NCBI RefSeq assembly: GCF_018069875.1 | Contig: NZ_JAGQDF010000020.1 | Span: 1-64,000 of the forward strand | DNA: 64,000 nucleotides | Direction: 5' to 3' | Source: Ideonella alba | GTDB lineage: Bacteria; Pseudomonadota; Gammaproteobacteria; Burkholderiales; Burkholderiaceae_C | Shown: piece after piece, positions 632-17,908 of the stretch | Layout: every line of letters begins with the position of its first letter | Numbering within the stretch: position 1 is the stretch's first letter | Made by a program: the position numbers and the translations under genes | The notes under the pieces: generated by a model | Told to the model about the DNA's origin: nothing | Seen by the model: the letters and a program-made list of their open reading frames with translations, nothing else | The model's database searches: none

Positions 632-767
632 ATCTAGTCCGACCTCAGTCCTCGACCATCTCTAGTCGCCTCAGAAACGTCAATCGGGCGTGCTTATTGG
701 CGTTCATCCGGACTCAAGCTTTAGTTTGACAGGGCGTTTGGCGATTCCCAGTCTCTCAAAACCACCC

Positions 768-781
768 CGGGTGAACACCCG
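768..781 (-). terminator. Possible weak terminator after the MbtH gene
   Basis: A 6-bp inverted repeat (CGGGTG..CACCCG) lies about 25 bases past the stop codon of the MbtH-like gene. On the minus strand it is followed, after a short G-rich run, by TTTT. The loop is only two bases and the T tract is short and displaced, so the call rests mainly on position at the end of the operon. Confidence 0.25.
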
Positions 782-805
782 CAACAACCTATTGAAGCTT
801 CACAC

Positions 806-988
806 CTAACCCTTGCGCAAGCTGGCCGGGGTCATGTCAGTCCAGTGCCTGTTGATGTAGTCGAGGCAGTCCTCTTTGTTGTTTGGTTCGGTCTGGACCG
901 CCCAGCCAGCGGGCACGGCGCGATCAGCCGGCCACAACGAATACTGTTCTTCCGAGTTCATCACTACCACGTACTTGTCGGCTTCCAT
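806..988 (-). CDS. MbtH-like protein (NRPS adenylation partner)
   Basis: This 60-residue protein carries the MbtH family signature: NSEEQYSLWP near the N-terminus, VPAGW, a K..CLDYI segment, and WTDMTPASLR at the C-terminus. MbtH-like proteins bind adenylation domains and are often needed for their solubility and activity. The gene starts 19 bases after the stop of the C-A-T NRPS, with a GGAG ribosome binding site at a spacing of about 7 bases, and is the last gene of the operon. It presumably serves one or more of the three adenylation domains encoded upstream. The length is slightly shorter than the typical 65-75 residues. Confidence 0.95.
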   Translation of the reverse strand: MEADKYVVVMNSEEQYSLWPADRAVPAGWAVQTEPNNKEDCLDYINRHWTDMTPASLRKG

Positions 989-1007
989 TTGGTTACTCCT
1001 CGATTAC

Positions 1008-4000
1008 CTACTGCAGTGAAGATGATTGTCTGTCGGCTGTGCGCATCGCGTCGTGCCTACGCGCTTGGCGGGTGATGGTAGGAACTTCCGGAGGGGATAT
1101 GGCCCCCGTCGCTTGGTCAATGCTAGCCGCCAGCGCCGCAATCGTAGGGTGGTCGAACAGGCGGCGCAGCCCGATGTCGCCATACCCTTTTTCGGCGAGC
1201 CTACTGGCAATCTGAGTTGCTAGCAGCGAGTGGCCACCGAGGGCAAAGAAGTTATCGTGCACGCCGACGCGCTCGACACCAAGCACTTCGATCCATATTC
1301 CTGCCAACATTTCTTCGCTGGTGTTACGCGGCGCGACATAGCCCGTTCCGAGCGAATCACGCGACAACTCGGGTGCCGGCAAGGAATTGCGGTCGACCTT
1401 GCCGCTTGAGTTTAGCGGTAAGCTGTTCAGGAACACCCAGCCTGACGGGATCATATACTCGGGCAAGAAAGCCGAAAGCTGGGTACGCAAATCAACGATA
1501 TCAAGCATTCCGGAAAGAGGTACGACATACGCTACCAGTCGCTTGTCTCCAAGCTCGTCCTCGCGAGCGGTCACAACGGCATCACCAATTCCAGCGCAGT
1601 CCAGCAGCGCAGCCTCAACTTCTCCCACTTCAATTCGGAAGCCACGGATCTTGACCTGCTGATCGATTCGGCCGAGAAACTCGATATTGCCGTCGGGCAG
1701 ATAGCGCGCCAAGTCCCCGGTCTTGTACATTCGGCTACCAGGCTCATCGAAGGGATTGGGAATGAACTTCACCGCTGTCGGCACTGGACAGTTCAGGTAG
1801 CCGCGAGCCAATCCAGCGCCAGCGATATGCAGTTCTCCGGTCACGCCAATGGGGACCGGTTGTAGATTGCCATCAAGAATGTAAATCTTCCGTTGCGCTG
1901 TCGGGCGCCCGATTGGTATGAGTGGGCCGGACGGCATATGCAACGGCCTAAGCATGTACTGAGTCGCGGTCACGATCGCTTCGGTCGGCCCATAGGCATT
2001 TATAACCCTCATCGGGAGGGTAATTCCCCGGCAGGCCTGGGCCCGAACAGCCTCCCCGCCGACAATCAATGTGTCTAGCGGCAGTGACTCCAGGTCGGCA
2101 AGATTTTTCCGGGCATACTCATGCCAATAGGCTGCCGGGATGTCGGCCACACCGATCGACTGCCTGCGAACCTGAACAAGCAGTTCCTGCGGACTCCAAA
2201 TCTCGCGGCCCCGCAGTATGACTGTGGCTCCGCATACCAGTGGTGAAAACAACTGCTCGACAGAGACGTCAAAGTTGATTGATGCCAACTGCAAGCATCG
2301 CGTCCCGGGCTTCAAACGGTATGCTTTGCTTCGCTCCAGCAAGTGACAAGCGGCGGCACCATGCTCAACCAGGACTCCCTTTGGCTTTCCTGTTGAGCCC
2401 GACGTGTAGATGCAGTACGCCAAATTCAGCGAAGACGTTAAGGTCTGTGGGTTGAGGTGTACATGACTGCCGATATCGGACCAGTCTGAATCAAGGCAAA
2501 CGATCTCGTAGCTTGAACGTGGCAGGCGAGCCTTGAGGGATGACTGCGTGAGCACAATTTGCGCTCCAGTGTCCTGGAGTATGTAGGCTACGCGTTCTTC
2601 CGGATAGTCGGCATCGAGCGGTACGTATGCTCCGCCGGCCTTAAGAATACTAAGCAGCCCGATGACCATGTCTAGGCCGCGCTCCAAGCAGATCCCCACG
2701 AGTGTGTCGGGTTTGACTCCCTGGCACCTGAGGTGGTGCGCCAGCTGGTTGGCTTTGGCATTGAGCTGCGAGTAGCTCAGCTGCTTATCATCCATTGCCA
2801 CGGCTGTTGCATCTGGTGAGCGCTCAACCTGCTCTTCAAACAGCTGATGGATGCATTTGTCTCTCGGGAAGTCAATCCGAGTGTCATTCCACCCCAGCAG
2901 GATCTGGTTCTGCTCCGGCTCAGTCAGCAGCCGCAGAGCAGCTACAGGACTGTCAGGTGCGGCGGCCGCCAACTCTTCGACCAACACGGCGTATGAACGC
3001 GCCATGGCCTGAACAAGCCAAGCATCAAGATGCCCGCGGTCGTACAACAGCCAACCGCGCAAGCCACATGAGTCCTCCCGAATATCCAACGTAAGCTCGT
3101 TCTTTACGAATTTGGGAACGCATTCGACAGGGGGGAGGCTTTGGTCAGCAAGACACAGAGGGGGTACCGGCTTTGCCTCATAACCAAAGCCAAGTTGCAC
3201 CAGGGGCCCTTGGATGCTGTGGCCGGCTCGTTTCATCCCTCTGGCAACAAGAGGGAAGGGCAACGCGGCGCTCTCCATGAGGTCGAACAACTGGTCCTGC
3301 ACGCCAGCCAGCAGACCGCGAACCGTGTCGCCGGTATCGATGCGGGCCCGGACAATGCCAAGGTTGGTCAGGTAGCCGATTGCGGAAACAGCCTCTGGTG
3401 ACTGGCGATTACTCACAGGCATGCTGATCGCAAAATCGGCTTGGCCGGAGTAGCGGTGCACCAGCGCAGCGAAAGCCGCGAGGTGGTATGCGGTCGGCGT
3501 GATCCGGTGGCGCAGCGCGGCTGCGTTGATACGTTTGACGGCTTCGACGTCGAGGCTGAATTCCGCAACTCCCGAAATCGCGCTCCCCGTCTCCTGGTGG
3601 CGTGACTCACTGAGTAGCGGCAGTGCGACACGCGAGGGGATACCGGCAAGCCGACTGAGCGTTGCCTGAAGTGCAGCGTGTCCGGCCTGCGATTCGCAAT
3701 AGCGGGCCTCCTCGCGTGCCAACTCAGAGGCGATCAGCGGCTGGGTCAGCCACGCGGGTTCGCGATGTTCGGCCAGCGCTTTGGACACGGCTGCAAGTTC
3801 GTCCAAAAAGACCTCAGCTGACGCGCCGTCGAACACGATGTGCGGGAAGCTCAGCACGACGCCGCCGTCGGTTCCAACGATTGGCTGCGCAACCAATGCG
3901 CGCAACAGCGGCGGTACCGCGAGGTCAAAGGGGCGCTCGGTCTCAGCAAGCGCCAGATCGCGCAATGGCGCGTGTACGAGAGTCACCGGTACGGCATGCA

Positions 4001-4235
4001 GGTCATCTGCGTCTTGGATGCTCAAGCTTGGCACGCCGGCTTGGGCGGTGATCGCCGAGCGCAGCGACTCATGACGGCGGCACAACACAAGCAGCGCACG
4101 CTCCAACAGCGCCGTGTCGACCGCCTGAGCGCTTGCAAAGGCAAATACCATGTTGTAGGCCGCGCTAGTGGCTGCATCGCTTTGGCACAGGTACCAGAGG
4201 CCCTGCTGGGCGATAGTGAGTTTGGACTTGTTCAT
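1008..4235 (-). CDS. NRPS elongation module, C-A-T, no thioesterase
   Basis: A 1075-residue single-module NRPS. The condensation domain covers about residues 5-430; its active-site motif reads PHIVFDG near residue 130, so the first His is Pro while the second, catalytic His is kept. The adenylation domain (about 455-945) has TSGSTGKPKG near 610, AYGPTEA, YKTGDLARYLPDG, GRIDQQVKIRGFR and the A10 motif NSSGKVDR. The carrier domain has LGGHSLLATQI with Ser about 1003. Hand-read pocket residues include Asp235, Val236, Glu239, Asp278 and Ala322, suggesting a substrate with an amine or other basic side chain. Only about 70 residues follow the carrier Ser and no thioesterase or reductase is visible. 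The start at 4235 (MNKSKLTIAQQG) is preferred over an upstream ATG at 4262, which would overlap the MFS gene. Confidence 0.93.
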   Translation of the reverse strand: MNKSKLTIAQQGLWYLCQSDAATSAAYNMVFAFASAQAVDTALLERALLVLCRRHESLRSAITAQAGVPSLSIQDADDLHAVPVTLVHAPLRDLALAETERPFDLAVPPLLRALVAQPIVGTDGGVVLSFPHIVFDGASAEVFLDELAAVSKALAEHREPAWLTQPLIASELAREEARYCESQAGHAALQATLSRLAGIPSRVALPLLSESRHQETGSAISGVAEFSLDVEAVKRINAAALRHRITPTAYHLAAFAALVHRYSGQADFAISMPVSNRQSPEAVSAIGYLTNLGIVRARIDTGDTVRGLLAGVQDQLFDLMESAALPFPLVARGMKRAGHSIQGPLVQLGFGYEAKPVPPLCLADQSLPPVECVPKFVKNELTLDIREDSCGLRGWLLYDRGHLDAWLVQAMARSYAVLVEELAAAAPDSPVAALRLLTEPEQNQILLGWNDTRIDFPRDKCIHQLFEEQVERSPDATAVAMDDKQLSYSQLNAKANQLAHHLRCQGVKPDTLVGICLERGLDMVIGLLSILKAGGAYVPLDADYPEERVAYILQDTGAQIVLTQSSLKARLPRSSYEIVCLDSDWSDIGSHVHLNPQTLTSSLNLAYCIYTSGSTGKPKGVLVEHGAAACHLLERSKAYRLKPGTRCLQLASINFDVSVEQLFSPLVCGATVILRGREIWSPQELLVQVRRQSIGVADIPAAYWHEYARKNLADLESLPLDTLIVGGEAVRAQACRGITLPMRVINAYGPTEAIVTATQYMLRPLHMPSGPLIPIGRPTAQRKIYILDGNLQPVPIGVTGELHIAGAGLARGYLNCPVPTAVKFIPNPFDEPGSRMYKTGDLARYLPDGNIEFLGRIDQQVKIRGFRIEVGEVEAALLDCAGIGDAVVTAREDELGDKRLVAYVVPLSGMLDIVDLRTQLSAFLPEYMIPSGWVFLNSLPLNSSGKVDRNSLPAPELSRDSLGTGYVAPRNTSEEMLAGIWIEVLGVERVGVHDNFFALGGHSLLATQIASRLAEKGYGDIGLRRLFDHPTIAALAASIDQATGAISPPEVPTITRQARRHDAMRTADRQSSSLQ

Positions 4236-4245
4236 AGGTACAAGC

Positions 4246-5553
4246 TCACGATGCGGTTGCATCGGCGACCTTCAGGGGACTCTCCGAAACGCGCAGTCCG
4301 CCTTGCCACCACAGCCCTGCGGTGCAGAAGGCGATCAGCAGCCCGCACGCCGAGATTAAGGAGCCTAAGGCACCGGTGAGCCCTGCCCCCCAGGTGGCTC
4401 CCAATGGCGCTAGGGTTTGAGTGATTGGGCCAAAGACGGTATTTGCGAGCGGAATAGAGCTCAGGGTCGCTAGCGGCGTCAGACCATACGCGACGACGGT
4501 GCGCACGGCGAAAACCTTGCCTTGCGTAGCGATAGGCACATTGGATTGCCAGATTGTCTGGCTGCACGCTGAGATCAGTGAGGTCGCCGCCCCGATAAGC
4601 AGGACGAGTACACACAATAGACGCGTGTCTCGCGCGATGCCCCATGCGAACATGCATATCGCGAGGAAGAACGCGGCGACAAGTACGGCATTGGCATGAT
4701 CCATGGCGACCCGGCGCCTGACTAAATAGGCACCCACCGTGAAAGCGCCGGCACCTTCAAATGCCAAGGTGAATCCAAGATTGCGGTTGTCACTGAACGA
4801 TAGGAGGTAGGGCGTGATGGTGACCACAAAAATTGTCAGGCCGATGTTGATCAACATGAAGAACAGCAACAGTCGACGCAAACCCGGACGGGCGAAGACC
4901 CAGCGGAACCCATAGGTCATCTCACCCCAAAATCCGGTCGAGTCTCCGCGCGCGGCTTTGTCAGCGGGACGGGAGGACGGGCGGATGGCCAGGATCCCTG
5001 CGATGCCGATAATGTAGGACAGGATGTCGAGTGCAAGCATCCCGTTGAGGCCGAGCAGTGTCAGGCCAAAGGCGCCCAGCAGTGGACCCAACACAACGTT
5101 GATACCGCGAAACACCTGCTGTAGGCCGTTGACTCTCGCCAAGTCCTCTCTTGGCACCAGTTCAGAAATCGTTGGGCTGAGGGCGGACCAGCGTAGCTCG
5201 GACGTCAGGCTTAGCAACATCATTGCCACCGCCACAAGGACAACGCTGAGTTCACCCGTGATGGATGCAAGCCAGATGACGCAGATCATCGCCAAGGACA
5301 TAACGTCGGCGATCAGCAGCAGGCGTTTCTTGTCGCATCGATCTGTGATGAGCCCCGCGAATGGGGCGAAGAGGATCTCGGGCAGCGCGGCCAGTGTGCT
5401 GAGCACAGCAAAGATCGGGAACGACCCGGTTTGACGGAAGATCCAGACGTTCAGCCCAAACGATGTCAGGGTCGACCCAAGCGTACTGATGCCGCGTGTA
5501 GCGACCAAGACCCACGCTGATCGTGGGACGGCCGATGTGGGGCCTTCGGTCAT
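4246..5553 (-). CDS. MFS transporter, probable peptide exporter
   Basis: A major facilitator protein of about 435 residues with roughly 12 hydrophobic segments. The loop after the second segment carries GLITDRCDKKR, the MFS signature between helices 2 and 3. It resembles the EntS-like exporters found in siderophore and NRPS clusters. The ATG at 5553 overlaps the stop of the phosphopantetheinyl transferase gene as ATGA, which decides this start over an in-frame codon 129 bases upstream that would give an unusual Arg/Ser-rich leader. The next NRPS starts 10 bases downstream. It probably exports the tripeptide-derived product across the inner membrane; the substrate is an inference from context. 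Confidence 0.88.
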   Translation of the reverse strand: MTEGPTSAVPRSAWVLVATRGISTLGSTLTSFGLNVWIFRQTGSFPIFAVLSTLAALPEILFAPFAGLITDRCDKKRLLLIADVMSLAMICVIWLASITGELSVVLVAVAMMLLSLTSELRWSALSPTISELVPREDLARVNGLQQVFRGINVVLGPLLGAFGLTLLGLNGMLALDILSYIIGIAGILAIRPSSRPADKAARGDSTGFWGEMTYGFRWVFARPGLRRLLLFFMLINIGLTIFVVTITPYLLSFSDNRNLGFTLAFEGAGAFTVGAYLVRRRVAMDHANAVLVAAFFLAICMFAWGIARDTRLLCVLVLLIGAATSLISACSQTIWQSNVPIATQGKVFAVRTVVAYGLTPLATLSSIPLANTVFGPITQTLAPLGATWGAGLTGALGSLISACGLLIAFCTAGLWWQGGLRVSESPLKVADATAS

Positions 5554-6353
5554 GGTGTTAGAGGGCGGGGAGGAAGGGGAAGACCATGCCGGAGCATGAC
5601 CACTGTATGAACTGCGCGTTCGATCGTCGTGATCTTGGCTTCGATCGGCTCGGACCACTCCGGGCCAAGGGCACCGGCGCAAAGCCAGGCGATCGCGTGG
5701 CCTGGCCGTGCCTCAATCGACAGAACCTCAACCTCGTCGAAATCGACGAAACGACGGACATGGCGGTGGATCGCCTTGTAAAGCGATTCTTTGGCAGAGA
5801 ACAGAGCAGTGGCCCGCCATTGGTCGTCGCAGCCGTCGAACAACTGTTGGCGTTCGCGATCCGTGCAGCACAAGGCCTGAATGACAGCGAATCCAGCGTG
5901 ATCGACGATTAGCTCCGAGTCGATCCCAATGCCGGCGCACACACTAGCTGGCGCGGCGACTGCGTAGGCCATCTCACTAGTGTGGGAGATCGACCCGACA
6001 CTGCCGTCTGGCCAGACTGGCTCACCCGTATCGCCTCGCAACACAGGCCAGCCAATCCCAAACTGGGCGAGTGCCCGCCCAGCACAAAGCCGACCGGCTA
6101 GAAAGGAAGCCCGTCGACTAGGCACGGACAGCCTCAGCTCCGCCGGAAGTAGGCTATGCAACGCGTCCGCCAGGGTGCTGCAGACCGAAATCGGGATCGC
6201 CGCGCCGAAGCACGACGCTGGCAAAGCATGGGGCACGCGCTGACATGCCAAATCCAGTTCCGCAAGGCAAGAGGCGGTAGCCGCCAAGCTCGAGCCGCCC
6301 GCAGAGCCCGCTCCCCCGCTGGGCAAGAGGTGGAAGCGATTATCTTCTGTCAT
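5550..6353 (-). CDS. 4'-phosphopantetheinyl transferase (Sfp/EntD type)
   Basis: A 267-residue enzyme that would load phosphopantetheine from coenzyme A onto the carrier domains of the neighbouring NRPS proteins. Family motifs are present: RRASFLAGR in the N-terminal half, GEPVWPDGSVGSISHT, GIGIDSEL with the metal-binding Asp, and FSAKESLYKAI with the Glu-Ser pair typical of Sfp/EntD enzymes. Start and stop overlap the flanking genes by 4 bases on both sides, so it is translationally coupled within the operon. The N-terminal 45 residues are Gly/Ala/Ser-rich and unlike the core family. Confidence 0.94.
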   Translation of the reverse strand: MTEDNRFHLLPSGGAGSAGGSSLAATASCLAELDLACQRVPHALPASCFGAAIPISVCSTLADALHSLLPAELRLSVPSRRASFLAGRLCAGRALAQFGIGWPVLRGDTGEPVWPDGSVGSISHTSEMAYAVAAPASVCAGIGIDSELIVDHAGFAVIQALCCTDRERQQLFDGCDDQWRATALFSAKESLYKAIHRHVRRFVDFDEVEVLSIEARPGHAIAWLCAGALGPEWSEPIEAKITTIERAVHTVVMLRHGLPLPPRPLTP

Positions 6354-8944
6354 GCCCGATCATCCTGATGCACCGCCACCACGCGAAACTCGCTCGTGTA
6401 CGGTTCGCCTTGGGTGTCTTGCAGCCACAGTGCATTCATGCCGGGCAGCATCTCCGAAAACACGAGGCATGCGTCGGCGCATGCACTACTGTCCAAAGCG
6501 ACGCGCACCTGTTTGATGAGCAGCCGCACGAGCGCGGGGCTGCAGAAGTCCAGGTAGAAGGGCTTGACCTCGCAGGGCGACTTCACGAAGACCTGCTCCG
6601 GCAGCCGGTTCTGCGATTTCCAACGGCGCATGAACCGGAAAGCCTCTGCGTCACCGCCCTGGCAAGCGCCCGCCAGCTGCCGACACTCGACGCGCCAGCA
6701 TTCGCGCTGCACGACCAAGTCGCCAATGGCAATCCGCGGCACGTGGGGACTTGGACTGAACATCCGGAACTGGTTTACCGCCAGCGTCGACATCGACTCA
6801 CCGAATGCGTCGAGAATGTCGGCACAAAACCGGCCGTCATGGGTCCGCGCTACCAATTCGCCGTCCACGCGCTCGACGATCAGCTCGCCTACGGCAATGG
6901 CCGACGCAGGATCCAGCGGACAAGCGTCGTGAGAAAAGCAGATCTCCCGGTCGACGCCCGGTTCGGCTACGACCTGAACCCGCACCGGTTGGCCTGAGCC
7001 TACGCGCGAGAACAGGGGAAGTGCACGCGGCATGCCAAGATCGGCGCGCAAGGCTGCCAACAGCGACGATGGATCCGGATGCTGCTGACAGGCTGAGTGG
7101 TTGATAAGAGTGTTGACCCCCATGTGGAGTTCGCCGAGCACGAAGGACAGTTCGCCACGCCTGGCCGCCATTGAATCCGTTGCAGCGACCAGGATGTCCG
7201 GGCTCTGGTGGCACGCACTGCGCCAGCCACAGTCAGAGGCAATGAAGTTCTGCTCGACAGCGGCTTGCACGCGAGAGACTGGGAACACGAGCTGTCGGTC
7301 GCCGTCGGCATAAGGAAGGATGGATGCCCAGCGCGCGGCTAGCTCCTGCTGCAGCGACGATGTGTCAAGGGCTTGCCCCTGAAACAAGTCCTGAACGAGA
7401 TACCAGAATCTGACGAGAGGCACAGCCTCGACGCCGCCACAACGGTCGAAGGCATCATGCATCGCCGCGCGTGCCAGCTTCGCGAGCTGATGGCAGTACC
7501 AGCGCGCGCTACTGAGCACTAAGTCCAGCGGCGCTTGCAGCTTCGCGCGTGCGTCGATGCCGAGACTGATACTGAGGTTGCGCCGGCAATCCTCGTAGAC
7601 AATCGTACGGGCTCCATAGGTCTCCCCGGGCGCTCGCACCGCGGCAACGCCAGTCACTCGCTCGAAGGCCGAATTCAAGGCAGCCACGGCATCGGCAACC
7701 GCATCTGCGTCTCCAGCCGCTGCCGCCAGCGCCGTACGTCCTTGCTCTAGCGTGTCAAGTCCAGCGAGGGCTTCTTGCTTTAGATATTCGTTGTCGATTG
7801 CCTCCAGTTGGCGCCGCAGCGGCTGCTCTGGTCGAGGTTCGCCCACAGGGACCTGGAACTCCCAGACGATCCGGCGCGAGCCGGCCAGCGCCTCCAGGGT
7901 CGCGAAGACCTCCGATTCTTGTTCGAAGGGCCCGAACGGGTTGGCGCACAGGGCAGCAGCGATGTCGCTCGCGAGCGCGACGCCGTCGCAGCAGGCCACG
8001 ACGGATGCAGACCGCTCGTCTAGCTCAACGGCGTGACCGTGCGGCATTTGAAGACGAGCACCATCCCATCTCAACTGCGGTGCTAAGCGAGGTGTCTGCC
8101 AATGGCGATAGCGCAAATCTGCGGACAAACGTTCTGCATAAGCGCGAATCGCCCAGTCTTCGAAATACACATGCCGCGCCTGGAGGAAAGAAGGCCCCAG
8201 GGCGCAGCTGATGTGGCCCGGCGATTCAGCGAAGAGTGCCCACGCCTCGGGCCCGAAGAAGCCAATCGTGTCATTCTTGATTGAATATCGCTGCGCATAA
8301 GCGGTGACCAGCGTCTCGGCCTGGCGCAACTTCGCCGAATCATCGACCACATCGACCAGCAGTCGGTCGACGCATTGGTGCAGCGCCTTCAGGTTTTGCC
8401 ATGCCACGGCTTCCCGAAAGCGCTCCTGACGGGCAATCGTTGCGGCCCATTCGCGCGATCGCCGGGCTGCTTGCACATGGACATGTTCGTATCGTGCGCG
8501 AGCTGCTCTCAAGAGGTCCTCGGCCTCGATCATCGCCTCGGCCATGACGGTGCTTAGGTGAGGTAGCAGCGGTGTATTGTGGCCTGTGCGGTAAGCCTGT
8601 CGCAGGCCCCGCTGCAGGTCGCGCAGCTGCGCGGCATCCTGTGCTGGCGCGCCTGCGTTCAGACCCGGAGCCCGTATGCGCTCGCGCAAGGCTTCGGTCC
8701 GGCTTCTGAGCGCCTTGAGCGCGGCTTTGCGCAGAATGGCAACGCGCGTTTCGACCCCGTTGACTTCGTCTGCCGTCCGCGCCGCGTCCGCAGAAGCGAA
8801 ACCGGCGATCAGCGAAGCAGAGAAACCAGCGCTGCGAAACTCGATGTCGCGCCAGTATGACCAGCCCTGCGGACTGGCCGGGGTCAAGTGGGCTGGGATC
8901 GCGATGGCGCGATGTACTACCGGCCCGGTAGATGCCCGCCTCAT
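6350..8944 (-). CDS. LanB-like protein (lantibiotic dehydratase, tRNA-dependent type)
   Basis: An 864-residue protein resembling the N-terminal (glutamylation) part of lantibiotic dehydratases. Visible family-like segments are YSIKNDTIGFFGP around residue 220, where canonical LanB proteins have a TPFG(L/F) motif, and a C-terminal FRMFSPSPHVPRIAIGDLVVQR segment followed by a basic tract. In known LanB enzymes this part uses aminoacyl-tRNA: Glu-tRNA for Ser/Thr dehydration, or other aminoacyl-tRNAs in the peptide aminoacyl-tRNA ligases (PEARLs) that extend a peptide C-terminus. The length fits a stand-alone LanB/PEARL without the separate elimination domain. No precursor peptide or elimination subunit is seen nearby. 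It overlaps its neighbours by 4 bases on each side in an NRPS operon, so it probably acts on an NRPS-bound or released peptide. The family assignment is fairly sure; the function is not. Confidence 0.78.
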   Translation of the reverse strand: MRRASTGPVVHRAIAIPAHLTPASPQGWSYWRDIEFRSAGFSASLIAGFASADAARTADEVNGVETRVAILRKAALKALRSRTEALRERIRAPGLNAGAPAQDAAQLRDLQRGLRQAYRTGHNTPLLPHLSTVMAEAMIEAEDLLRAARARYEHVHVQAARRSREWAATIARQERFREAVAWQNLKALHQCVDRLLVDVVDDSAKLRQAETLVTAYAQRYSIKNDTIGFFGPEAWALFAESPGHISCALGPSFLQARHVYFEDWAIRAYAERLSADLRYRHWQTPRLAPQLRWDGARLQMPHGHAVELDERSASVVACCDGVALASDIAAALCANPFGPFEQESEVFATLEALAGSRRIVWEFQVPVGEPRPEQPLRRQLEAIDNEYLKQEALAGLDTLEQGRTALAAAAGDADAVADAVAALNSAFERVTGVAAVRAPGETYGARTIVYEDCRRNLSISLGIDARAKLQAPLDLVLSSARWYCHQLAKLARAAMHDAFDRCGGVEAVPLVRFWYLVQDLFQGQALDTSSLQQELAARWASILPYADGDRQLVFPVSRVQAAVEQNFIASDCGWRSACHQSPDILVAATDSMAARRGELSFVLGELHMGVNTLINHSACQQHPDPSSLLAALRADLGMPRALPLFSRVGSGQPVRVQVVAEPGVDREICFSHDACPLDPASAIAVGELIVERVDGELVARTHDGRFCADILDAFGESMSTLAVNQFRMFSPSPHVPRIAIGDLVVQRECWRVECRQLAGACQGGDAEAFRFMRRWKSQNRLPEQVFVKSPCEVKPFYLDFCSPALVRLLIKQVRVALDSSACADACLVFSEMLPGMNALWLQDTQGEPYTSEFRVVAVHQDDRA

Positions 8945-11900
8945 ACCAACGTCACCCCAATGTCTTCTATATGGAGCGCAATGGCGCGTGGGGTGGCCAG
9001 CCGATAGAGGTCGCGCACCTTCAGTTGCACGCCCAGTCGGCTTTTGCAGGCCGCGACCAGGCGCAGCAGCTGCACCGAATGCATGCCATTGCGCAGCAGG
9101 TCATCGTCTGGTTCGATTGCGATAGAAGGCATCAGCTCACGCAGAATCTCGATGACCTCCGGCAGCGTCGGGCACTCAGCGTCGACCGCCGGGCACTCGA
9201 TGCTCGCCCGGTCGGCACTCGAGGGCTCTGGCGGCGGCAACTGCAAACGGTCGACCTTGCCGTTGCGGCTGAGCGGCAGGTGCTGCAGGAAGACCCAGGC
9301 ACCCGGAAGCATGTATTCCGGCAAGCGCTGCGCGAGCTGCGCACGGACGGCGTCGAGGTCCAACGCCGCGCCATCAGCGGTGACCAGATAGCCCACGAGC
9401 TGGAGGTCACCCGAGCCGCCCGGGTGAGCCGAGATCGCCGCCCCGCGTACGCCCGGCAGACCGACCAGGACGGCCTCAACTTCGCCGGGCTCGACCCGGA
9501 AGCCGCGGATCTTGACCTGGCTGTCCGTTCTTCCAAGGAACTCGATGTTGCCGTCGGGCCGGTAGAAGCCCTGGTCGCCGGTCCTGTACAGACGCTCGCC
9601 AGGCGCACCATAAGGATCGGGGACGAACTTCTCTGCGGTGAGGCCGGGCAGATTCAGGTAGCCGCGAGCGACCCCAGCGCCGCCGATGCAGATCTCGCCC
9701 GGAACGCCGAATGCCGTCGGCTCGAGGTTGGCGTCGAGCACGTACACGCGCACATTCGAAATCGAGCGGCCCAGCGGCACACTTGTGCCCGACGGCGGAC
9801 GGTCGGTCGGGTCAACGCGGCCGCGCGTGGCAATGATGGTGGCTTCAGTCGGGCCGTAGGTGTTGAACAGCGTGAAGTCCGGATGGCGGGTCAAGCGCTG
9901 CCAGCGCTCGACATGCTCCCATTTCGCGGCCTCGCCGCCGATCACGGTGATCCGGACCGAATGCGGGATCCGGCTTCGGTCATCGGCATGCGTCACCAGG
10001 GCGGCCCAGAACGCCGTCGGCAGATCCAGCACTGTGAGTTCTTCCGCGGCCATCCACGCGAGGAACTCTTCGTCGGGCGCCCGCAGTTCCGGCGGCGCGA
10101 TGACGAGCGTCGCGCCGACAAGCAGCGTGGGCACGATCTCCTCCAGCGATGCGTCGAAGCCGCATGAGCAGATCTGCAGAACGCGGTCTGAAGCAGTCAG
10201 CGCGCACGCTGTGCAATGCGACCACGCATGGTTCACGAGCGATCGGTTCGAGACGCCAACGCCCTTAGGGCGCCCGGTCGATCCGGACGTGAAGATGCAA
10301 TAGGCCAGATGGCCAGGCCGGGAAACGTTCAGCGGGCGCTCGGACGACTGGCCAGAAAGATTGTCATCACCCCCGTCCAGCACGATGACGCGTGCGGCCG
10401 AAGAACGCAGCGCCGGCGCGTGCCGCGCCGTCGTCAATAGGACCGGCGCACCTGTATCGGCAAGCACACCGTCGCGCCGCTCGGCCGGATAGCCCGGATC
10501 CAGCGGCACGTAGACGCCACCTGCCTTGAGAATGCCCAGCAGTGCGACGATCAATTCGACGCCGCGCTCGACGCAGGCGACGACGGCGACTTCCGGCCCC
10601 ACGCCGCACGAACGGAGGCAGTGCGCCAAGCGATTAGCACGCCGCTCCAGCTCGCCGTAGCTGACCCGGTGCGCTCCGGCCACGACCGCTGTCGCGCCGG
10701 GATGGGCATCCGCCTGCAGCTCGAACAGCTCGTGGACACACCGGTCCAGGTCCCAACCCTCGGATGTGTCGACGAAGTCTCTCAACAGCAGCCGGCGTTC
10801 GCTGGACGGAAGGACTGAGAGGTCCTGCAGACAGCGGCGGCTATCGGCCGAGATGGCGTGCAGCAGCGTCACGTAGTGGTCGAGCAACCGCTCAACGCTC
10901 GCTTCGTCGAGGCAGTCGGTGCTGTATTCGAACAGCAGCTCCAGACCCTCGCCCTTGCCAGGATTGCCGGCAATCACCACCACATCCAGGTCGAACTTGG
11001 CCGATCCGATGGCGATCGCTTCGTCGACGTCAACGACCAACTCGCCAAAGCGGGGTTGGGCTTCGAGGGAATCGTGGAACGAGAAGCCCACGTTGAACGG
11101 CGGTTCCCCTTGCAAAGTGGCCGACAGGTTCAACGCCTTGACGATCTCGCCGAGTGGCACCCGGCTGTGCGTCAACGCGAAGTCGATGGCGGCCGACGTA
11201 GCGTGTGCGAATGCCTCGAAGGGCATCCTCGGCGCGCAATCGAACGGCAACGGCAGCATGTTTACGAACATGCCGGTGGTCCACTGGTGCTTTGCCGCAG
11301 TGCGGTTGGCCAATGCCGTCCCGATGACAAAGCGTTGCTCGTTGCTGTGGCGCCCACAAAGCAGCCCGAAGGCGGAGAACATCAGCGCGAAACGCGTTAC
11401 CCCCAGACTGGCCGCGACTGTATCGACCGCGCGCACGAGTTCAGCCGCGAGAGGCCTGCGCGCCTGGGCACCGATGCCCTGGCGCCGGGGAGGCCGCGGG
11501 CGGTTCGAGAACAGGCGAACCTGGGGGTCAGACGACGCTAGCGCCCCGCGCCAGGCCGAAAGTTGCGCGCGAAACTCGGCAGACTGCAGCCATGCACGCT
11601 CTTCGCAGCAGTAGTCGCCGTACTGCGCTTCGATCTGCGGCAGTCCCGCTGCGGAACCCGTCGTGGCGGCGCTGTACAGCGTCGACAGGTCACGCACCAG
11701 GATCCGGAAGGATTGCCCGTCGTGCAAGAAGTGGTGTTCGGATTGCAACAGGACGTGCTCGTCCTGCGCCATTCGCAGCAGCAGCCAGCGTGCCAGCGGT
11801 GCTTGTGAAATGTCGAACCGGTGCGCGAGTTCGGCGGCGATATGGGCTTGCAGCGCAGGCTCGCGTTTACCCAGCGGAAGCGCGGACAAGTCGACCACCG

Positions 11901-13983
11901 GCAGCGGGACCTCGAGGCGCTGTGACACTTGGCGAAAGAGTTCACCGTCGTGCTGGATGAACGCGGTGCGCAAGATCTCATGGCGGTCGACCAATTGGAC
12001 GAGCGCGGTTTGCAGCGCCGGCACGTCCAGCGCTCCCCGAAAATTGAAGCGCGCGTGGAAGCGATAGGCGCGCCAGCCCTCACCAAGCTGCTCGAGAAAC
12101 CAGACCTGATGCTGAGCCTGCGAGGCGCAAGGTGTGCTACCGGCGGAGTCCGCGGCGAACGCGTCCTGCCCGTGTGGATCAAGCACGGCGATGCAAGCCT
12201 GGGCGAATTCGGAGAGGGTCATATTGCCCAGAGGCGCTGGCACCCGATGTCCGCCGAAGAGCTTGCGGCCCGCCCGGAAGCTGAGGTCGATCGCCTGAAT
12301 CGAGTTGCCGCCCAAGGTCGCGAACTGGTCGAGCCTGCCGACGCGGTCCAGACGGAGCACCTCCGCCCAGAGTTCGGCCAAGCGAGTCTCTAGGCCCGGC
12401 TTGGGTGCGACGTACGCGGTGGCGATCCCGTCGCGTCCCGATCCAGGCGGCGGCAGCGAGCGTCGGTCGATTTTCCCGCTTGGGCCATGCGGCATCGCAT
12501 CGAGGACGGTCCAGGCGGATGGGATCATGTAGTGCGGCAGCTTGTGAGCCAGCCCGTCGCGCAGTCCTTCGACGGTCAGGCGCCGGCCCGGCGCCGCGGT
12601 CAGGTAGCACACTAGCCGCCTTTCGCCCGGAACGCGTTCCCATGCAACGACCACGGCTTCATGGACACCGGGCTCGCGGGCGACCACTGCTTCGATTTCA
12701 CCGAGTTCGACACGGTGTCCGTTGATCTTGACTTGGTGGTCGATTCGGCCCGCAAACGTGATGCGACCGTCAGCGAGCCGCGCGCCGAGGTCGCCCGACC
12801 TGTACATTCGACTGCCCGGGGGGCCGTACGGATTGGGGATGAACTTTTCGGCGGTGAGATCCGGACAATTTAGATACCCCCGCGCCAAGCCTGAGCCGGC
12901 GATATGGATCTCGCCCACCTCGCCGGGTTGCACCGGCTCCAACTGCTCGTCGAGGATGTGGATCCAGGTCTCGTTGATCGGGTTTCCGAGCGGGACAGCG
13001 CTCGCGGCCTCCTGCGACGACACAGTGCCGCAGATGGCAAAGGTGGTCGTCTCTGTGGGCCCGTACCCGTTGACGAGCCGGCAGCCCGGCAGGGCCTTCA
13101 GCGCGCGTGCGACGGCACTGGGCATCAGCACGTCGCCGCCGGCAAGAAGCTGACGCAAGCTCGACATGCCCTCGAAATGGCCTGCACCGATGCGATGGAA
13201 CAATGGCGCCGTCAGCCAGGCTGTGGTCACGCGGTGGAGCTCGATCGCGGCGGCGATCGTCTCCGGGTTCACCGGGCCGGGTTCGAGGATTGCTACGGTG
13301 CCCCCATTCAGCAAGGCACCCCACAGTTCGAAGGTGGATGCATCGAACGCCAATGGCGCGGCGTGAAGCAGGACTTCCTTCGCGTCCAGATGCACGTAGT
13401 CCGGCTCGCAAACCAGCCGCAGCACACCTGCGTGCGGAGTGAGAATGCCCTTGGGAGCGCCGGTGGACCCCGAGCTGAACATGCAGTACGCCACGTCGCC
13501 GGGCGCGGACTGGCCCACCGGATCGCGAGGGCTCTGCGTCGCGAGGTCCGGCACGATGTCGTCAAGGCACACGGACCGCGCTTGAATACCGTGGGGCAGG
13601 CGCGCGATTCGATGTCCGTCCGTCACGAGGACGCGTGCCTCCGTTTCGCGCAGCTGGTGTGCCAGACGTTCCGAAGGGCAGTCTGCCTCGATGGGCACGT
13701 AGCCGCATCCCGCCTTCAGAATGCCAAGCAGGGCTTCGATCGCAGCGCTGCTGCGCGGCAGCCAGACACCCACCAGCGAACCTCGCGTCATGCCGAGGCC
13801 GCGCAGGTAGTGGGCCAACTGATTGGCCTTACGGTTCAGTTGACCGTAGGTCGTGTGTGCAGCTCCGCAGACAAGCGCGACAGCATCCGGCGACGTTCGC
13901 GCGTGGTGCTCGAACCGCTCTTGTATCGAATTCGAATCGCGGACCGCGCATCGCGCCGGCGCGTCAGTATGAGCTGGGTCCAT
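8941..13983 (-). CDS. NRPS, initiation plus one elongation module (A-T-C-A-T)
   Basis: A 1680-residue synthetase. Adenylation domain 1 covers about 25-515 (SSGSTGAPKG near 165, NGYGPTETTTF, A10 Lys in PSGKIDR near 505). The first carrier domain has LGGNSIQAI with Ser561. The condensation domain (about 625-1060) has the intact motif HHFLHDG near 750. Adenylation domain 2 spans about 1085-1570 (TSGSTGRPKG near 1232, NTYGPTEATII, RNGKVDR). The last carrier reads LLRNGMHSVQLL with Ser near 1636. No condensation domain precedes A1, so this is the loading protein. My hand-read A1 pocket code, DAFWLGGTF plus Lys, matches valine-type codes. The A2 pocket has Glu239 and Asp278, suggesting a basic or amide side chain. 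Start lies 57 bases after the receptor gene. Confidence 0.95.
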   Translation of the reverse strand: MDPAHTDAPARCAVRDSNSIQERFEHHARTSPDAVALVCGAAHTTYGQLNRKANQLAHYLRGLGMTRGSLVGVWLPRSSAAIEALLGILKAGCGYVPIEADCPSERLAHQLRETEARVLVTDGHRIARLPHGIQARSVCLDDIVPDLATQSPRDPVGQSAPGDVAYCMFSSGSTGAPKGILTPHAGVLRLVCEPDYVHLDAKEVLLHAAPLAFDASTFELWGALLNGGTVAILEPGPVNPETIAAAIELHRVTTAWLTAPLFHRIGAGHFEGMSSLRQLLAGGDVLMPSAVARALKALPGCRLVNGYGPTETTTFAICGTVSSQEAASAVPLGNPINETWIHILDEQLEPVQPGEVGEIHIAGSGLARGYLNCPDLTAEKFIPNPYGPPGSRMYRSGDLGARLADGRITFAGRIDHQVKINGHRVELGEIEAVVAREPGVHEAVVVAWERVPGERRLVCYLTAAPGRRLTVEGLRDGLAHKLPHYMIPSAWTVLDAMPHGPSGKIDRRSLPPPGSGRDGIATAYVAPKPGLETRLAELWAEVLRLDRVGRLDQFATLGGNSIQAIDLSFRAGRKLFGGHRVPAPLGNMTLSEFAQACIAVLDPHGQDAFAADSAGSTPCASQAQHQVWFLEQLGEGWRAYRFHARFNFRGALDVPALQTALVQLVDRHEILRTAFIQHDGELFRQVSQRLEVPLPVVDLSALPLGKREPALQAHIAAELAHRFDISQAPLARWLLLRMAQDEHVLLQSEHHFLHDGQSFRILVRDLSTLYSAATTGSAAGLPQIEAQYGDYCCEERAWLQSAEFRAQLSAWRGALASSDPQVRLFSNRPRPPRRQGIGAQARRPLAAELVRAVDTVAASLGVTRFALMFSAFGLLCGRHSNEQRFVIGTALANRTAAKHQWTTGMFVNMLPLPFDCAPRMPFEAFAHATSAAIDFALTHSRVPLGEIVKALNLSATLQGEPPFNVGFSFHDSLEAQPRFGELVVDVDEAIAIGSAKFDLDVVVIAGNPGKGEGLELLFEYSTDCLDEASVERLLDHYVTLLHAISADSRRCLQDLSVLPSSERRLLLRDFVDTSEGWDLDRCVHELFELQADAHPGATAVVAGAHRVSYGELERRANRLAHCLRSCGVGPEVAVVACVERGVELIVALLGILKAGGVYVPLDPGYPAERRDGVLADTGAPVLLTTARHAPALRSSAARVIVLDGGDDNLSGQSSERPLNVSRPGHLAYCIFTSGSTGRPKGVGVSNRSLVNHAWSHCTACALTASDRVLQICSCGFDASLEEIVPTLLVGATLVIAPPELRAPDEEFLAWMAAEELTVLDLPTAFWAALVTHADDRSRIPHSVRITVIGGEAAKWEHVERWQRLTRHPDFTLFNTYGPTEATIIATRGRVDPTDRPPSGTSVPLGRSISNVRVYVLDANLEPTAFGVPGEICIGGAGVARGYLNLPGLTAEKFVPDPYGAPGERLYRTGDQGFYRPDGNIEFLGRTDSQVKIRGFRVEPGEVEAVLVGLPGVRGAAISAHPGGSGDLQLVGYLVTADGAALDLDAVRAQLAQRLPEYMLPGAWVFLQHLPLSRNGKVDRLQLPPPEPSSADRASIECPAVDAECPTLPEVIEILRELMPSIAIEPDDDLLRNGMHSVQLLRLVAACKSRLGVQLKVRDLYRLATPRAIALHIEDIGVTLV

Positions 13984-14040
13984 CGTCAGAGAAAATCGGC
14001 GATGTGGGGAGGTGGGATCAGGAAGAGCTTCGCTAACTGC

Positions 14041-16236
14041 TCAGAGCTTCCATTCCAGGGTGGCGCGAACCGTTGCCGCGCGCTCTTCTCGGGTCCTCTG
14101 CTGGAAGGTGCCGCTGGCATCCAAGTTCATCTGGTCAGTGAGCGTCGGTTGTCTCGACAAATTGCTCAGCGCGATGCGCAGCTGTGTGTCCTGATTCAAC
14201 TTCCATAGGGCGTACGCATCCCAGACCGTCGAGCGATGACGACGCTCCAGCAGGGAGCTCGAGGCGCGGGCCGTACGTATTGACGAATACGTCAGGCTGG
14301 TGCCCACGGTGAGATGATGGGTCGGCAGTTGATAGTCGATCCCGACACTGGAGGTGAACGGCGTCTGCCCAACCATGCGGTTGCCGGGCTCGGGCCAGTT
14401 CGACAGGTGTGACCAGTTCCACCCCACGTTGCCGCGAAGGTCGACTTGGGGCCACTCCGCGCCCAGCTTCCGGAGGCTGAGCTTGCCGCTCAGCTCCAGG
14501 CCGGTCGTGATGGCCTTGCCATTGTTGAAGGGGCGCACGACCCAAGCTCCATCGACGAAGCTCAGTTCCTGGACGGTCACGTCGTCGATGCTACGGGCGT
14601 ACGCCGTGGCGCTGACCATGCCGTCCAGCGCAGGCAAATAGTGTTCAAGTGAAATATCCAGGCCCCATGCCAGCTCCGGGCTTAGCGCCGGGTTGCCGCT
14701 GGTGTTCGGTGTGGTCGGCGTGTTGTCGTTGGCGACGTGCCGACGCGGATTGAGCTGGTCGGGCGTAGGAGCCTTGTAGGTCCGGCTTAACCCCAAGCGC
14801 AGCTGGTCGTCTTTGTATTCGAGCGGGCGCCAGACCATCTGGACGATCGGACTCAGTACCGCTGACCGGCTGTCGACGGTGCTGATGGTGTTGCCCGAGG
14901 CGTGCGTCAGCAGCGTTTCCCAACGAACACCAGCGTAGACCGACAACTCCTTGGTTATGGCCCATTCGTCTTGTGCGAATAGCGCGAGCTTGTCGATCCT
15001 GACGTCATTGATCTCGACCAGGTCGACGGCCGGATAGCCCGGCGGCGCCGACTGAAACTGCCGCCTGTCTTCGGACAGATTGGTCACCGAACCATCCCAG
15101 CCGAATTCCATCGCGTGGCCCTCGACCACCGGGGCTCGGAACTTGCCGTTGACAGTGAGCGTCCGCGTAAAGGTGGTCGCGAAGATGTCTTCATTGAGGG
15201 TGCGGAGGCCGTTTTCGTCAAAGCCTTCGAAGTGCGACGTGCCGAGGATGCGGAAGCGGCTCATCCCGAGCTTGAGGTCGAGGTCCGCTTCGTCGAACAG
15301 CTGCTGCCGCCACGCGAGGCGAAAGCGAGCGAGCTGGGCATTGATCCGCGAGAACTGCGTGTCGCTGGCGAAAGTCGGAACGACCCCGGTTGTGGAAATC
15401 CGTTCGTCGCTGGTGCGGTCTTCGATTCGACGCAGCGACAGCCATGGATCCAGCGTGAGGACAGTTCGGTCAACCGGCTTCCACTTGAGGGCCGATGCAA
15501 ACTCAAGCTTGTCGATTCGCAGCGAATTCTCCTGGTCGGTATGCCGCCGCAGGAACTCGAAGCCGCTTGCATCCGTTGCGCTTTGATTGAGGGTGGTGGG
15601 CGTGCGCGAGTTGGTTTCGCTGGCCGAGGGCGAGAGCGAATATGACAAGTCGTTGACGACGCCAGAGAGCTCGCCGTTGATAGCGTAGCTTTCCTCGCCC
15701 TTCGGACCTCCAGCAGTGACTCGAATCGAGCGCGTGGCTTTCCGGGGGGGCTGGCGCAGGATGATGTTAATCGTGCCCGCGATTGCCTGGGTACTTTGGT
15801 CAGCGGTTGCGACCCGGCTGACCTCGATCCTTTCCACCAGGGAAGGGGACAAGGATTCGATCGCGAACCCAGGCGGAGCAGAATCTCCGTTGATCAGAAT
15901 CTGCGTGTAGCCATTGCCCAGTCCGCGCATGCGGATGTCGGTCTTGCCCTGCCTACTAACGACCTCAAGGCCGGGAACGCGCCGCATCGAGTCTGCAAGA
16001 TTCGTGTCGCCAAATTTTGTCAGTTCCGCCTGAGTCACCGTAACGCGCGCCGTAGTAGCACTCCGCTGATCGGCTAGCCCGTCGTCAGCAGCCGCGGTGA
16101 CCTGGACTTGTTGGACGGCGCTATCCGCCGCGGCTGCGGTTCGGCTGGGGTCTTCAGCGAAAACAGACTGGCAAGCAAGAGCCGAATACACCAACGTCGC
16201 AGTTGTGGGCAGGTGCGCGACAGCCAATCGATGCAT
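14041..16236 (-). CDS. TonB-dependent outer-membrane receptor
   Basis: A receptor of about 731 residues. The chosen start (MHRLAVAH) gives a clear signal peptide ending VFA, followed by a plug domain: VQVTAAADDG as a TonB-box-like region, then DTNLADSMRRVPGLEVVSRQ, MRGLGNGYTQILINGD and a SPSLVERIEV segment. The remainder alternates polar and hydrophobic residues as in a 22-strand barrel and ends in a short beta-strand motif (LEWKL). The frame is open 51 codons further upstream to 16389, but those residues would hide the signal peptide. It is first in the NRPS operon, so it probably recovers a metal-loaded or other form of the product, or protects the producer. No FecI/FecR regulators were seen. 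Confidence 0.92.
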   Translation of the reverse strand: MHRLAVAHLPTTATLVYSALACQSVFAEDPSRTAAAADSAVQQVQVTAAADDGLADQRSATTARVTVTQAELTKFGDTNLADSMRRVPGLEVVSRQGKTDIRMRGLGNGYTQILINGDSAPPGFAIESLSPSLVERIEVSRVATADQSTQAIAGTINIILRQPPRKATRSIRVTAGGPKGEESYAINGELSGVVNDLSYSLSPSASETNSRTPTTLNQSATDASGFEFLRRHTDQENSLRIDKLEFASALKWKPVDRTVLTLDPWLSLRRIEDRTSDERISTTGVVPTFASDTQFSRINAQLARFRLAWRQQLFDEADLDLKLGMSRFRILGTSHFEGFDENGLRTLNEDIFATTFTRTLTVNGKFRAPVVEGHAMEFGWDGSVTNLSEDRRQFQSAPPGYPAVDLVEINDVRIDKLALFAQDEWAITKELSVYAGVRWETLLTHASGNTISTVDSRSAVLSPIVQMVWRPLEYKDDQLRLGLSRTYKAPTPDQLNPRRHVANDNTPTTPNTSGNPALSPELAWGLDISLEHYLPALDGMVSATAYARSIDDVTVQELSFVDGAWVVRPFNNGKAITTGLELSGKLSLRKLGAEWPQVDLRGNVGWNWSHLSNWPEPGNRMVGQTPFTSSVGIDYQLPTHHLTVGTSLTYSSIRTARASSSLLERRHRSTVWDAYALWKLNQDTQLRIALSNLSRQPTLTDQMNLDASGTFQQRTREERAATVRATLEWKL

Positions 16237-16663
16237 GTCGGTCTGCGGGCGAACCACGATCCTGGCGCCAACGTGCTGCCACAAGCGAACTGACGCCTCC
16301 GTTACTAGCCGTAGATTGGGGAATGCAACTAATGGGCCCCAAAGAACCTGTCCGCCCGTGACGCTGGGCGCTAGCTTAGCACTAGGCACTGGAATGCTAC
16401 TAATGACGCCTCCCTGGATGCCCCATCATTGGGGCCGGCTAAGCCCCCCGCAAGCACCCGAACGATTGTTCTACTTTGCTCCCGATTGCCTTTGTCGACA
16501 ATTTCACTGCGGAGCAGGCTCGGATGCTACACGAAAACTTTTCGGTGCGAACCCCGGCTTTCGTTTCATCAAGTTCAGCAGGAAGGCACGTGGTGCATGC
16601 GGTCGCAGGTGAAATGAAGAGGCTCTACTGAATTTCCAGTGGGTTACCGGGCAAGGGTTCGTA
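16237..16663. promoter_or_regulatory. Upstream region of the NRPS operon
   Basis: About 430 bases between the receptor start and the IS3 element. The promoter of the whole minus-strand operon should lie here, but no convincing -35/-10 pair and no Fur-box-like inverted repeat was found by eye. Part of it stays open in frame with the receptor gene. The right edge is cut by an IS3-family terminus, so some original upstream sequence may be lost. Confidence 0.4.
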
Positions 16664-16702
16664 TGAATAGGCCCCGGTTCCGCGGAGGCCAGTCGGTTTA
16701 AG

Positions 16703-17565
16703 TCAGACGATCGCGGCCTGACCAGCGCTTTGCCGATGGTAATTGGCTTCAAACTCAGCCGGCGGCACGTGACCCAGCGGACCCATCAGGCGGTGATGGT
16801 TGAACCAGGCCACCCATTCCAGGGTGGCCAGTTCCACCGCCTGCTTGGTCTTCCACGGCCCGCGCCGGTGGATGACCTCAGCCTTGTAGAGCCCGTTGAT
16901 CGTCTCGGCCAGCGCGTTGTCGTAGCTGTCGCCCTTGGAGCCCACGGAGGGCTCAATGCCGGCTTCAGCCAGGCGCTCGCTGTAGCGAATCGACAGGTAT
17001 TGCGAGCCCCTGTCGGAGTGGTGCGTCAGGCTGCCGTCGTCGTCGGGCTTGCGGTCATACAGCGCCTGCTCCAGTGCATCCAGGACGAACTCCGTGTGCA
17101 TCGAACTGCTCTGGCGCCAGCCGACGATGCGCCGGCTGAAGACGTCCACCACAAAGGCCACGTAGACCCAGCCCTGCCAGGTCGAGACGTAGGTGAAGTC
17201 CGACACCCACAGCTGATTCGGCCTCTCGGCTCTGAACTGCCGATTGACCCGGTCCAGCGGGCACGGCGACTTCGGGTCAGGGATGGTGGTGCGCAGCGCC
17301 TTGCCTCGGCGAACGCCCTGCAAGCCCTGCAGCCGCATCAGACGCTCGACCGTACAGCGCGCCACCTCGATGCCCTCGCGGTTGAGCTGATGCCAGACCT
17401 TCTCGGCACCATAGACCTGAAAGTTGGCCCGCCAGACCCGCTCGACTTCGGGCACGAGGACAGCGTCGCGCTGGGCTCGATGGGACCGCAGCTCAGGCCT
17501 GCGCTGACACGCGGCGTGGTGCCGGTAGGCGGATGGGGCGATCTGCAGCACACGGCAGATCGACT
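16703..17565 (-). pseudogene. IS3-family OrfB, main fragment, cut by insertion
   Basis: The main part of an OrfB transposase: an HTH-like start (SICRVLQIAPSAY), the DDE integrase core with WVSDFTYV (first Asp), HHSDRGSQY (second Asp) and NALAETINGLYK (Glu), and the C-terminal motif GPLGHVPPAEFE. The first residues of OrfB lie on the far side of the inner IS3. Rejoining across the insertion and removing one ACT copy restores VESICRVLQ in frame. An apparently longer reading frame that runs on to 17740 enters the inner element and is not native. Confidence 0.85.
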
Positions 17566-17626
17566 TGAATCGCCCCGGGTTCAGTAGACACCTTCGAGCC
17601 TCAAACTGAGCCCAATAGGAGGTGCC

Positions 17627-17908
17627 ATGACGAAGAACCAGCACTACCCGGAAGAATTCAAGATCGAGGCGGTCAAGCAGATCACCGAGCGAGGCCACAA
17701 GGTGGCCGAGGTTGCGACCCGCCTGGGGGTGAGCCAGCACAGCTTGTACAAGTGGATCAAGCTCTTTGGTCAGCCTGCGCAGGACCGCCAGGCCCAGGCG
17801 TCGCAGACGGAGGAATTGCGGCGCCTGAAGGCTGAGCTGCGGCGCGTGACCGAGGAGCGCGACATCCTAAAAAAGGCCGCCGCGTACTTTGCCAAGCAGT
17901 CCGGGTGA
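17627..17908 (+). CDS. IS3-family OrfA (HTH protein)
   Basis: A 93-residue OrfA with the family helix-turn-helix (FKIEAVKQITERGHKVAEVATRLGVS, then SLYKWIK) and a C-terminal leucine-zipper-like heptad region (LRRLKAELRRVTEERDILKKAA). It binds the terminal repeats and pairs with OrfB. The A6G run near 17869-17875 (ctaaaaaaggc) is a typical -1 frameshift site producing the OrfAB transposase. A good ribosome binding site (aggagg) precedes the ATG. Confidence 0.93.
   Translation: MTKNQHYPEEFKIEAVKQITERGHKVAEVATRLGVSQHSLYKWIKLFGQPAQDRQAQASQTEELRRLKAELRRVTEERDILKKAAAYFAKQSG

Follow-up and report, generated by a model that had tools for sequence, protein, structure and literature searches.

What is a gene for a LanB-like protein doing inside an operon for nonribosomal peptide synthesis? 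The question arises from Ideonella alba, in a stretch of 64,000 nucleotides (positions 1 to 64,000 of contig NZ_JAGQDF010000020.1, assembly GCF_018069875.1; below, the window), where seven minus-strand genes running from 16389 down to 806 encode, in this order, a TonB receptor, a first nonribosomal peptide synthetase (NRPS1), the LanB-like protein, a 4'-phosphopantetheinyl transferase (PPTase), a major facilitator superfamily (MFS) exporter, a second synthetase (NRPS2) and an MbtH protein. An initial annotation had described this gene content and had suggested a product combining NRPS chemistry with either aminoacyl-tRNA-dependent extension or dehydration. All seven genes are indeed in place, and the LanB-like gene (6350..8944, minus strand, 864 aa) overlaps both neighbours by 4 bases, NRPS1 at 8941-8944 and the PPTase gene at 6350-6353, as had been noted. 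The predicted fold, the residues typical of peptide aminoacyl-tRNA ligases (PEARLs), a ureido-type condensation domain and the precedent of SnaA/SnaE favour the extension half of that suggestion: the operon probably makes a ureido peptide that is extended by a PEARL-type ligase. Dehydration is not supported, because the protein has no elimination domain and the residues that map to the PEARL ATP site do not vary.

The LanB-like protein matches PF04738 with 79 bits against a cut-off of 28 (E 2.9e-22) and has no match to the elimination domain PF14028. PF14028 also had no match in the whole genome, a weak null because the search was equally silent in all 14 control genomes. A single-protein phmmer search against PDB sequences found no match, whereas a profile of alignment A1 did. 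The predicted model has the LanB glutamylation fold, with TbtB as the nearest solved structure and MibB and NisB sharing the fold, and the structural match ends before the elimination domain of MibB and NisB; matches outside the LanB family were to single-domain or helical structures and were left unused. The LanB kinship put forward in the initial annotation is thus borne out by profile and by structure. The protein differs from the class I glutamylation domains of TbtB, MibB and NisB in lacking an elimination domain, in lying in an NRPS operon and in its PEARL-type ATP-site residues. Published work gives the ATP site of BhaB7 as D558, E575, H577, R715, F755, K763, E813 and R815, and its contacts with the tRNA CCA end as R197, Q201, Y205, R208 and R429 (PMC11962472, PMC12945691). 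Placed by order and spacing, the ATP-site counterparts here are D583, E605, H607, R747, F786, K794, E852 and R854, and the residues placed at this site are invariant in the relatives' alignment (A3). E852-x-R854 (6383..6391, minus strand), kept in 49 of 49 rows of A3, corresponds to E801/R803 of TglB, which are reported to act in ATP-dependent carboxylate activation (PMC11962472). Of the four tRNA-helix contacts that were mapped, two are kept, as Y216 and R219, and two are not, the counterparts of BhaB7 R197 and Q201 being Q208 and L212; the loss of all such residues, named in the initial annotation as a refuting result, is thus not seen. The PEARLs of ribosomal pathways, TglB and BhaB7, likewise are LanB-like without an elimination domain and, by order and spacing, share the ATP-site and main tRNA-site residues; in contrast to them, no scaffold peptide gene was found adjoining, and the two helix contacts are lost. 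Judged from sequence and model together, the LanB-like protein is very probably a PEARL-type ligase.

NRPS1 (8941..13983, minus strand; 1680 aa) has, by its Pfam domains, the order adenylation (A), carrier (T), condensation (C), A and T. Its C domain (10783..12126, minus strand) carries the motif EHHFLHDG (11716..11739, minus strand; residues 749-756, with E749, H751 and H754, and S758 just beyond). EHHXXHDG is the published signature of ureido-forming C domains (Curea); in SnaA the motif is EHHLVHDG, with E744, H746, H749 and S753 as the counterparts of E749, H751, H754 and S758, and exchange of E744, H746 or H749 for Ala left either no ureido formation or an amount at the detection limit (PMC11212132). 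In a tree of 154 C domains, which dropped domains shorter than 340 residues as well as those whose motif could not be read and included no proven Curea sequence, the NRPS1 domain and four more EHHxxHDG domains form a clade at a support of 0.983. These four come from 7 plasmid matches fetched out of 448 matching records of a plasmid tblastn search, and two of them (L152, L153) belong to very similar clusters; the remaining three fetched matches (H24, H31, H37) are without the motif, H31 having the third-best E-value among the 40 matches listed. Motif and grouping make it likely, with some confidence, that the C domain is ureido-forming. The first A domain (12472..13914, minus strand) has the code DAFWLGGTFK, which we take to be Val-like; this and all other code readings given here (Val, Thr, Asp, Glu, Gly, Ser, beta-amino acid) follow general code tables. 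The codes of the second A domain (9238..10662, minus strand; DAEDVGTIIK) and of the A domain of NRPS2 (DVEDIGAVTK) perhaps select a basic residue, because each has two acidic pocket residues. For six A-domain codes of this kind no mention was found in the open-access literature (PMC).

A pairing of a ureido NRPS with a PEARL-like protein was characterised in 2024 for SnaA/SnaE of the threopeptin pathway of Stackebrandtia nassauensis, in which the chain is turned round by ureido formation, exposing a carboxylate that the PEARL-like enzyme extends; SnaE was shown to be required by deletion in heterologous expression, and that it uses ATP and tRNA was deduced there from homology (PMC11212132). 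The same work mentions about two thousand NRPS or polyketide synthase (PKS) clusters with PEARL-like genes and characterises one of them (PMC11212132). Threopeptin is named in two papers of the open-access PMC library, a preprint and its published version. The window holds what defines a sna-type cluster, an A-T-C-A-T NRPS with a ureido-type C domain adjoining a PEARL-like gene in an operon without a precursor gene, and shares with sna an MbtH protein, a stand-alone PEARL-like protein and a transporter. The sna cluster alone has a polyketide module (ketosynthase-acyltransferase-T), an acyl-CoA dehydrogenase and a thioesterase as a separate protein; its two A domains each load Arg. The window, in contrast, has a C-A-T NRPS in place of the PKS and lacks a thioesterase in its operon; it adds a PPTase and a TonB receptor, its first A code is Val-like, and it has an unusual pair of T and C domains common to two Oxalobacteraceae relatives.

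If substrates, added amino acid and order of steps are read by this analogy onto the observed genes, domains, predicted fold, conserved residues, ureido motif and grouping, NRPS1 would load two amino acids and its C domain would link both amines through a carbonyl. The first residue, with the Val-like code, would retain a free, unactivated carboxylate and the second would stay on the terminal T domain; as ureido formation would turn the chain and leave the first carboxylate free, that carboxylate would become a substrate for PEARL extension. The ligase would phosphorylate it with ATP, the amino group of an aminoacyl-tRNA would attack the activated carboxylate and the tRNA would be freed, adding one amino acid against the direction of NRPS growth. 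NRPS2 would add one more residue at the other chain end, the PPTase would prime the T domains and MbtH would help the A domains. The MFS protein would export the product, and the TonB receptor may import it or a metal complex of it.

Relatives were sought in samples of 399 genomes of the same order and 369 genomes of the same class, among plasmids and in a scan of 79 loci. The PEARL-like protein has matches in 3 of the 399 genomes, its own included, one full-length at 36% identity (genome G055) and another over just 83 residues. The A3 profile matched in 25 of the 369: besides its own genome, only G622 matched over most of the length (with one internal stop codon), and the other 23 matched briefly within profile positions 260-364, the RRE-like part. 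In a named genome collection at least 388 candidate stretches encode a PEARL relative; the 79 loci kept, with flanks of at most 10 kb, come from the best 80 among the matches listed. An A-like or C domain occurs in 69 of the 79 and a readable C motif in 56, and by a crude stop-to-stop test only 38 of their 100 PEARLs have an A- or C-bearing ORF (open reading frame) directly beside or fused to them. Related NRPS operons also carry the LanB-like gene. The nearest PEARLs among the matches listed are those of Massilia cavernae (L017, 46%) and Pseudoduganella rivuli (L018, 36%). Together with that of the window they form a clade (99% support in the SH-aLRT, the Shimodaira-Hasegawa-like approximate likelihood ratio test) in a tree made by a quick method, with long branches (L018 included) and uneven letter make-up flagged. 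The Pseudoduganella locus keeps the order TonB-NRPS1-PEARL-PPTase-MFS-NRPS2, at 39-43% identity in the aligned parts of the TonB receptor (39% over 653 positions), PPTase, MFS protein and NRPS2 (43%); its NRPS1 is C-A-T, 32% identical over the C-A-T part, and its MbtH match lies at the opposite end of the locus. The Massilia cluster is interrupted by a contig end, and the sole EHHxxHDG-coding pattern of that genome, EHHQHHDG on contig 87, lies on no contig listed as similar to NRPS1.

Several of these results weigh against a ureido peptide extended by a PEARL. Two of the four tRNA-helix contacts named for BhaB7 are replaced, by Gln and Leu, and the residues of BhaB7 and TglB were mapped by order and spacing. 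The ureido motif is followed by QS in the window and by WS in the four other clade members. The C domain of locus L043 has EHHAIHDG yet falls outside the clade of NRPS1, and once it is included the six EHHxxHDG domains no longer group as a clade, their common ancestor spanning 121 of the 154 tips, so the motif alone may mislead. That motif is also the only EHHxxHDG among 136 readable C motifs of the 79 loci, contrary to our expectation of Curea domains in most PEARL loci; of the 56 nearest PEARL loci whose C domain is readable, 55 have no ureido-type motif in flanks of at most 10 kb. The Pseudoduganella NRPS1, within the same gene order, is without the motif, and its genome has no EHHxxHDG pattern at all. 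Because of this locus and the single motif among 136, a ureido partner cannot be assumed from the presence of a PEARL.

These last observations bring up a different substrate: the ligase may extend some other free carboxylate, of an acidic side chain or a dicarboxylic starter, the ureido-type C domain being incidental. Besides the Pseudoduganella locus, which retains the PEARL and gene order without such a domain, this agrees with a code we read as Glu-like (DSKDLGVVDK) directly before a PEARL in L058, with Asp-like codes in the NRPS genes of L046, L078, L084 and L094, and with L012 (12083-19641), where a PEARL-like gene adjoins genes for a methylaspartate mutase, a carrier protein, an AMP-binding protein and an ATP-grasp protein and where the PEARL perhaps acts on carrier-bound methylaspartate. 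None of the three A codes of the window is acidic-like, however, and a ureido-type domain in a SnaA-like A-T-C-A-T setting already supplies a free carboxylate. We regard another carboxylate as rather unlikely here.

Could the LanB-like protein instead take the place of a thioesterase, releasing the T-bound chain onto aminoacyl-tRNA? No thioesterase was found among the seven operon proteins, the gene directly follows an NRPS gene, and 12 ORFs of related loci fuse A-T domains and a PEARL. A thioester, however, requires no activation by ATP, which is hard to square with the invariance of the residues mapped to the ATP site, and the Massilia cluster has a thioesterase domain downstream, in a further NRPS; release by the LanB-like protein is improbable. 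The 12 proteins scanned from the Pseudoduganella locus likewise include no thioesterase. The twelve fusions, each in one frame (L024, L031, L035, L037, L038, L039, L041, L042, L045, L066, L071 and L072), belong to Saccharothrix, Micromonosporaceae and one Streptosporangiaceae, and several come after an HHAILDG C domain, with an A code that we take to be Val-like. In the genome of the window PF00975 (thioesterase) has 10 matches, 6 of them above cut-off. One lies in a 1373-aa ORF with a C domain on contig C16 (22,007 bases; L108/L109), a separate contig on which an NRPS ORF has C, A-like and thioesterase matches. We claim no link between the operon and C16, because window positions 1-806 and C16 share just 54 bases (96%) near its end and these also match contigs C8, C6 and C34.

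The fold of TbtB, MibB and NisB would also fit a dehydratase, or an enzyme that merely glutamylates Ser or Thr of the NRPS peptide with glutamyl-tRNA, and this is very unlikely given the missing elimination domain, PF14028 not being found in the genome (uninformative in the control genomes), the invariant ATP-site residues and an operon with no A code we read as Ser- or Thr-like. Equally remote is service to a ribosomal scaffold peptide from another part of the genome, which the retained RRE-like region (PqqD and TbiB1 matches) would suit: the largest gap within the operon, 57 bases, has no ORF of 20-110 aa, in line with the reported lack of a precursor gene as far as the operon interior goes (no search for a scaffold was made beyond this region), and the LanB-like gene overlaps its neighbours and recurs beside NRPS genes. 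Mechanical calling gave 14 small ORFs in 1-805 and 7 in 16237-16702.

Two domains are unusual. The terminal T domain of NRPS1 (8968..9153, minus strand), just before the PEARL, has GMHS replacing GGxS, and the Massilia and Pseudoduganella counterparts complete the set GMHS, GLHS and GFHS. NRPS2 (1008..4262, minus strand; C-A-T by Pfam, without a thioesterase) has FPHIVFDG in its C domain (3825..3848, minus strand), the first His being Pro; of the 154 C domains, just those of the window, Massilia and Pseudoduganella have PHxxFD in place of HHxxxDG, and the three form a clade with support of 1.0. Among 134 carrier motifs collected with a crude pattern, GxHS (x not G) also marks the last carrier of NRPS genes upstream of PEARLs in Amycolatopsis (L078, L084), and GAHS occurs once in L027, in an ORF after a PEARL. 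The GxHS carriers and PHxxFD C domains may be adapted to a PEARL-extended chain, a lead and not a result because so few independent lineages are involved. More tentatively still, the proteobacterial PEARL-NRPS lines might be a distinct subtype, in which the GxHS carrier would present the chain to a PEARL working on the assembly line, the PHxxFD C domain would accept the doubly extended chain, and the ureido module would be one of several interchangeable ways of exposing a carboxylate. The two relatives differ from the window in the C-A-T NRPS1 without a ureido motif (Pseudoduganella) and in the extra NRPS with a thioesterase domain (Massilia).

The remaining genes, all on the minus strand, are those of the TonB-dependent outer-membrane receptor (14041..16389; PF00593 4.1e-32, PF07715 3.8e-14), the PPTase (5550..6353; PF17837 6.5e-21, PF01648 2.3e-12), the MFS exporter (4246..5553; PF07690 4.2e-24) and the MbtH-like protein (806..988; PF03621 9.8e-21). 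The likely start of the receptor is the ATG at 16236, after which comes a signal-peptide-like stretch; this start agrees with the end given in the initial annotation and puts the operon end at 16236/16389. The MFS ORF reaches 5682; with its start taken as the ATG at 5553, it too overlaps the PPTase gene by 4 bases. On the question of a siderophore cluster, the TonB receptor comes with an exporter whose match to the EntS model (1.5e-7) is far below the model cut-off, no Fur box was found within the window by a consensus with up to 3 mismatches, and the Pfam results of the seven proteins include no catechol or hydroxamate enzymes. A terminator-like hairpin directly after mbtH (768..781, minus strand) is weak, since positions 1-17800 have 9 sites of this kind and 12.4 would be expected. 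Window position 1 is the contig end (base 1 of C12 in genome G000). A transposase gene and remnants lie on both sides of the operon (428-631 and 16703-18780): the rve transposase, outside the pathway, is at 16703..17740 (minus strand; PF00665 1.8e-28), and the ORF at 428-631 is presumably a transposase fragment. Stretches of window 1-806 are found again at other places in the genome. The left and right flanks are not copies of one another.

Other loci of the survey place PEARL-like genes in further settings. Two Streptomyces plasmids (L010, 8052-16109; L011, 7964-16073) have two such genes with a stand-alone A domain (DARSASQMTK), a carrier protein, a pyridoxal-phosphate enzyme, MbtH and a PPTase, and no C domain was detected in the DNA fetched. 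In Myxococcales and Kitasatospora (L049, L015) several PEARL-like genes cluster together, and the locus DNA gave no sign of an A or C domain. In Pseudomonas (L074, L076, L083) a PEARL directly follows an NRPS with a code we read as Ser-like and an odd code, VDATHSLADK, which we take to resemble beta-amino-acid codes. The gene adjoining the PEARL of G055 (L004, 1453-5447) presumably encodes a relative of phenylacetate-CoA ligase, judged from its sequence, and no NRPS domain was detected in the DNA fetched.

The pairing of ureido formation with a PEARL is a kind of system already described, here in a different arrangement. In the papers found it has been shown for one actinobacterium; the present operon belongs to another bacterial class and comes with a TonB receptor and an exporter. 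It raises the testable question of which carboxylates NRPS-linked PEARLs extend, and whether carrier-bound chains are their substrates.
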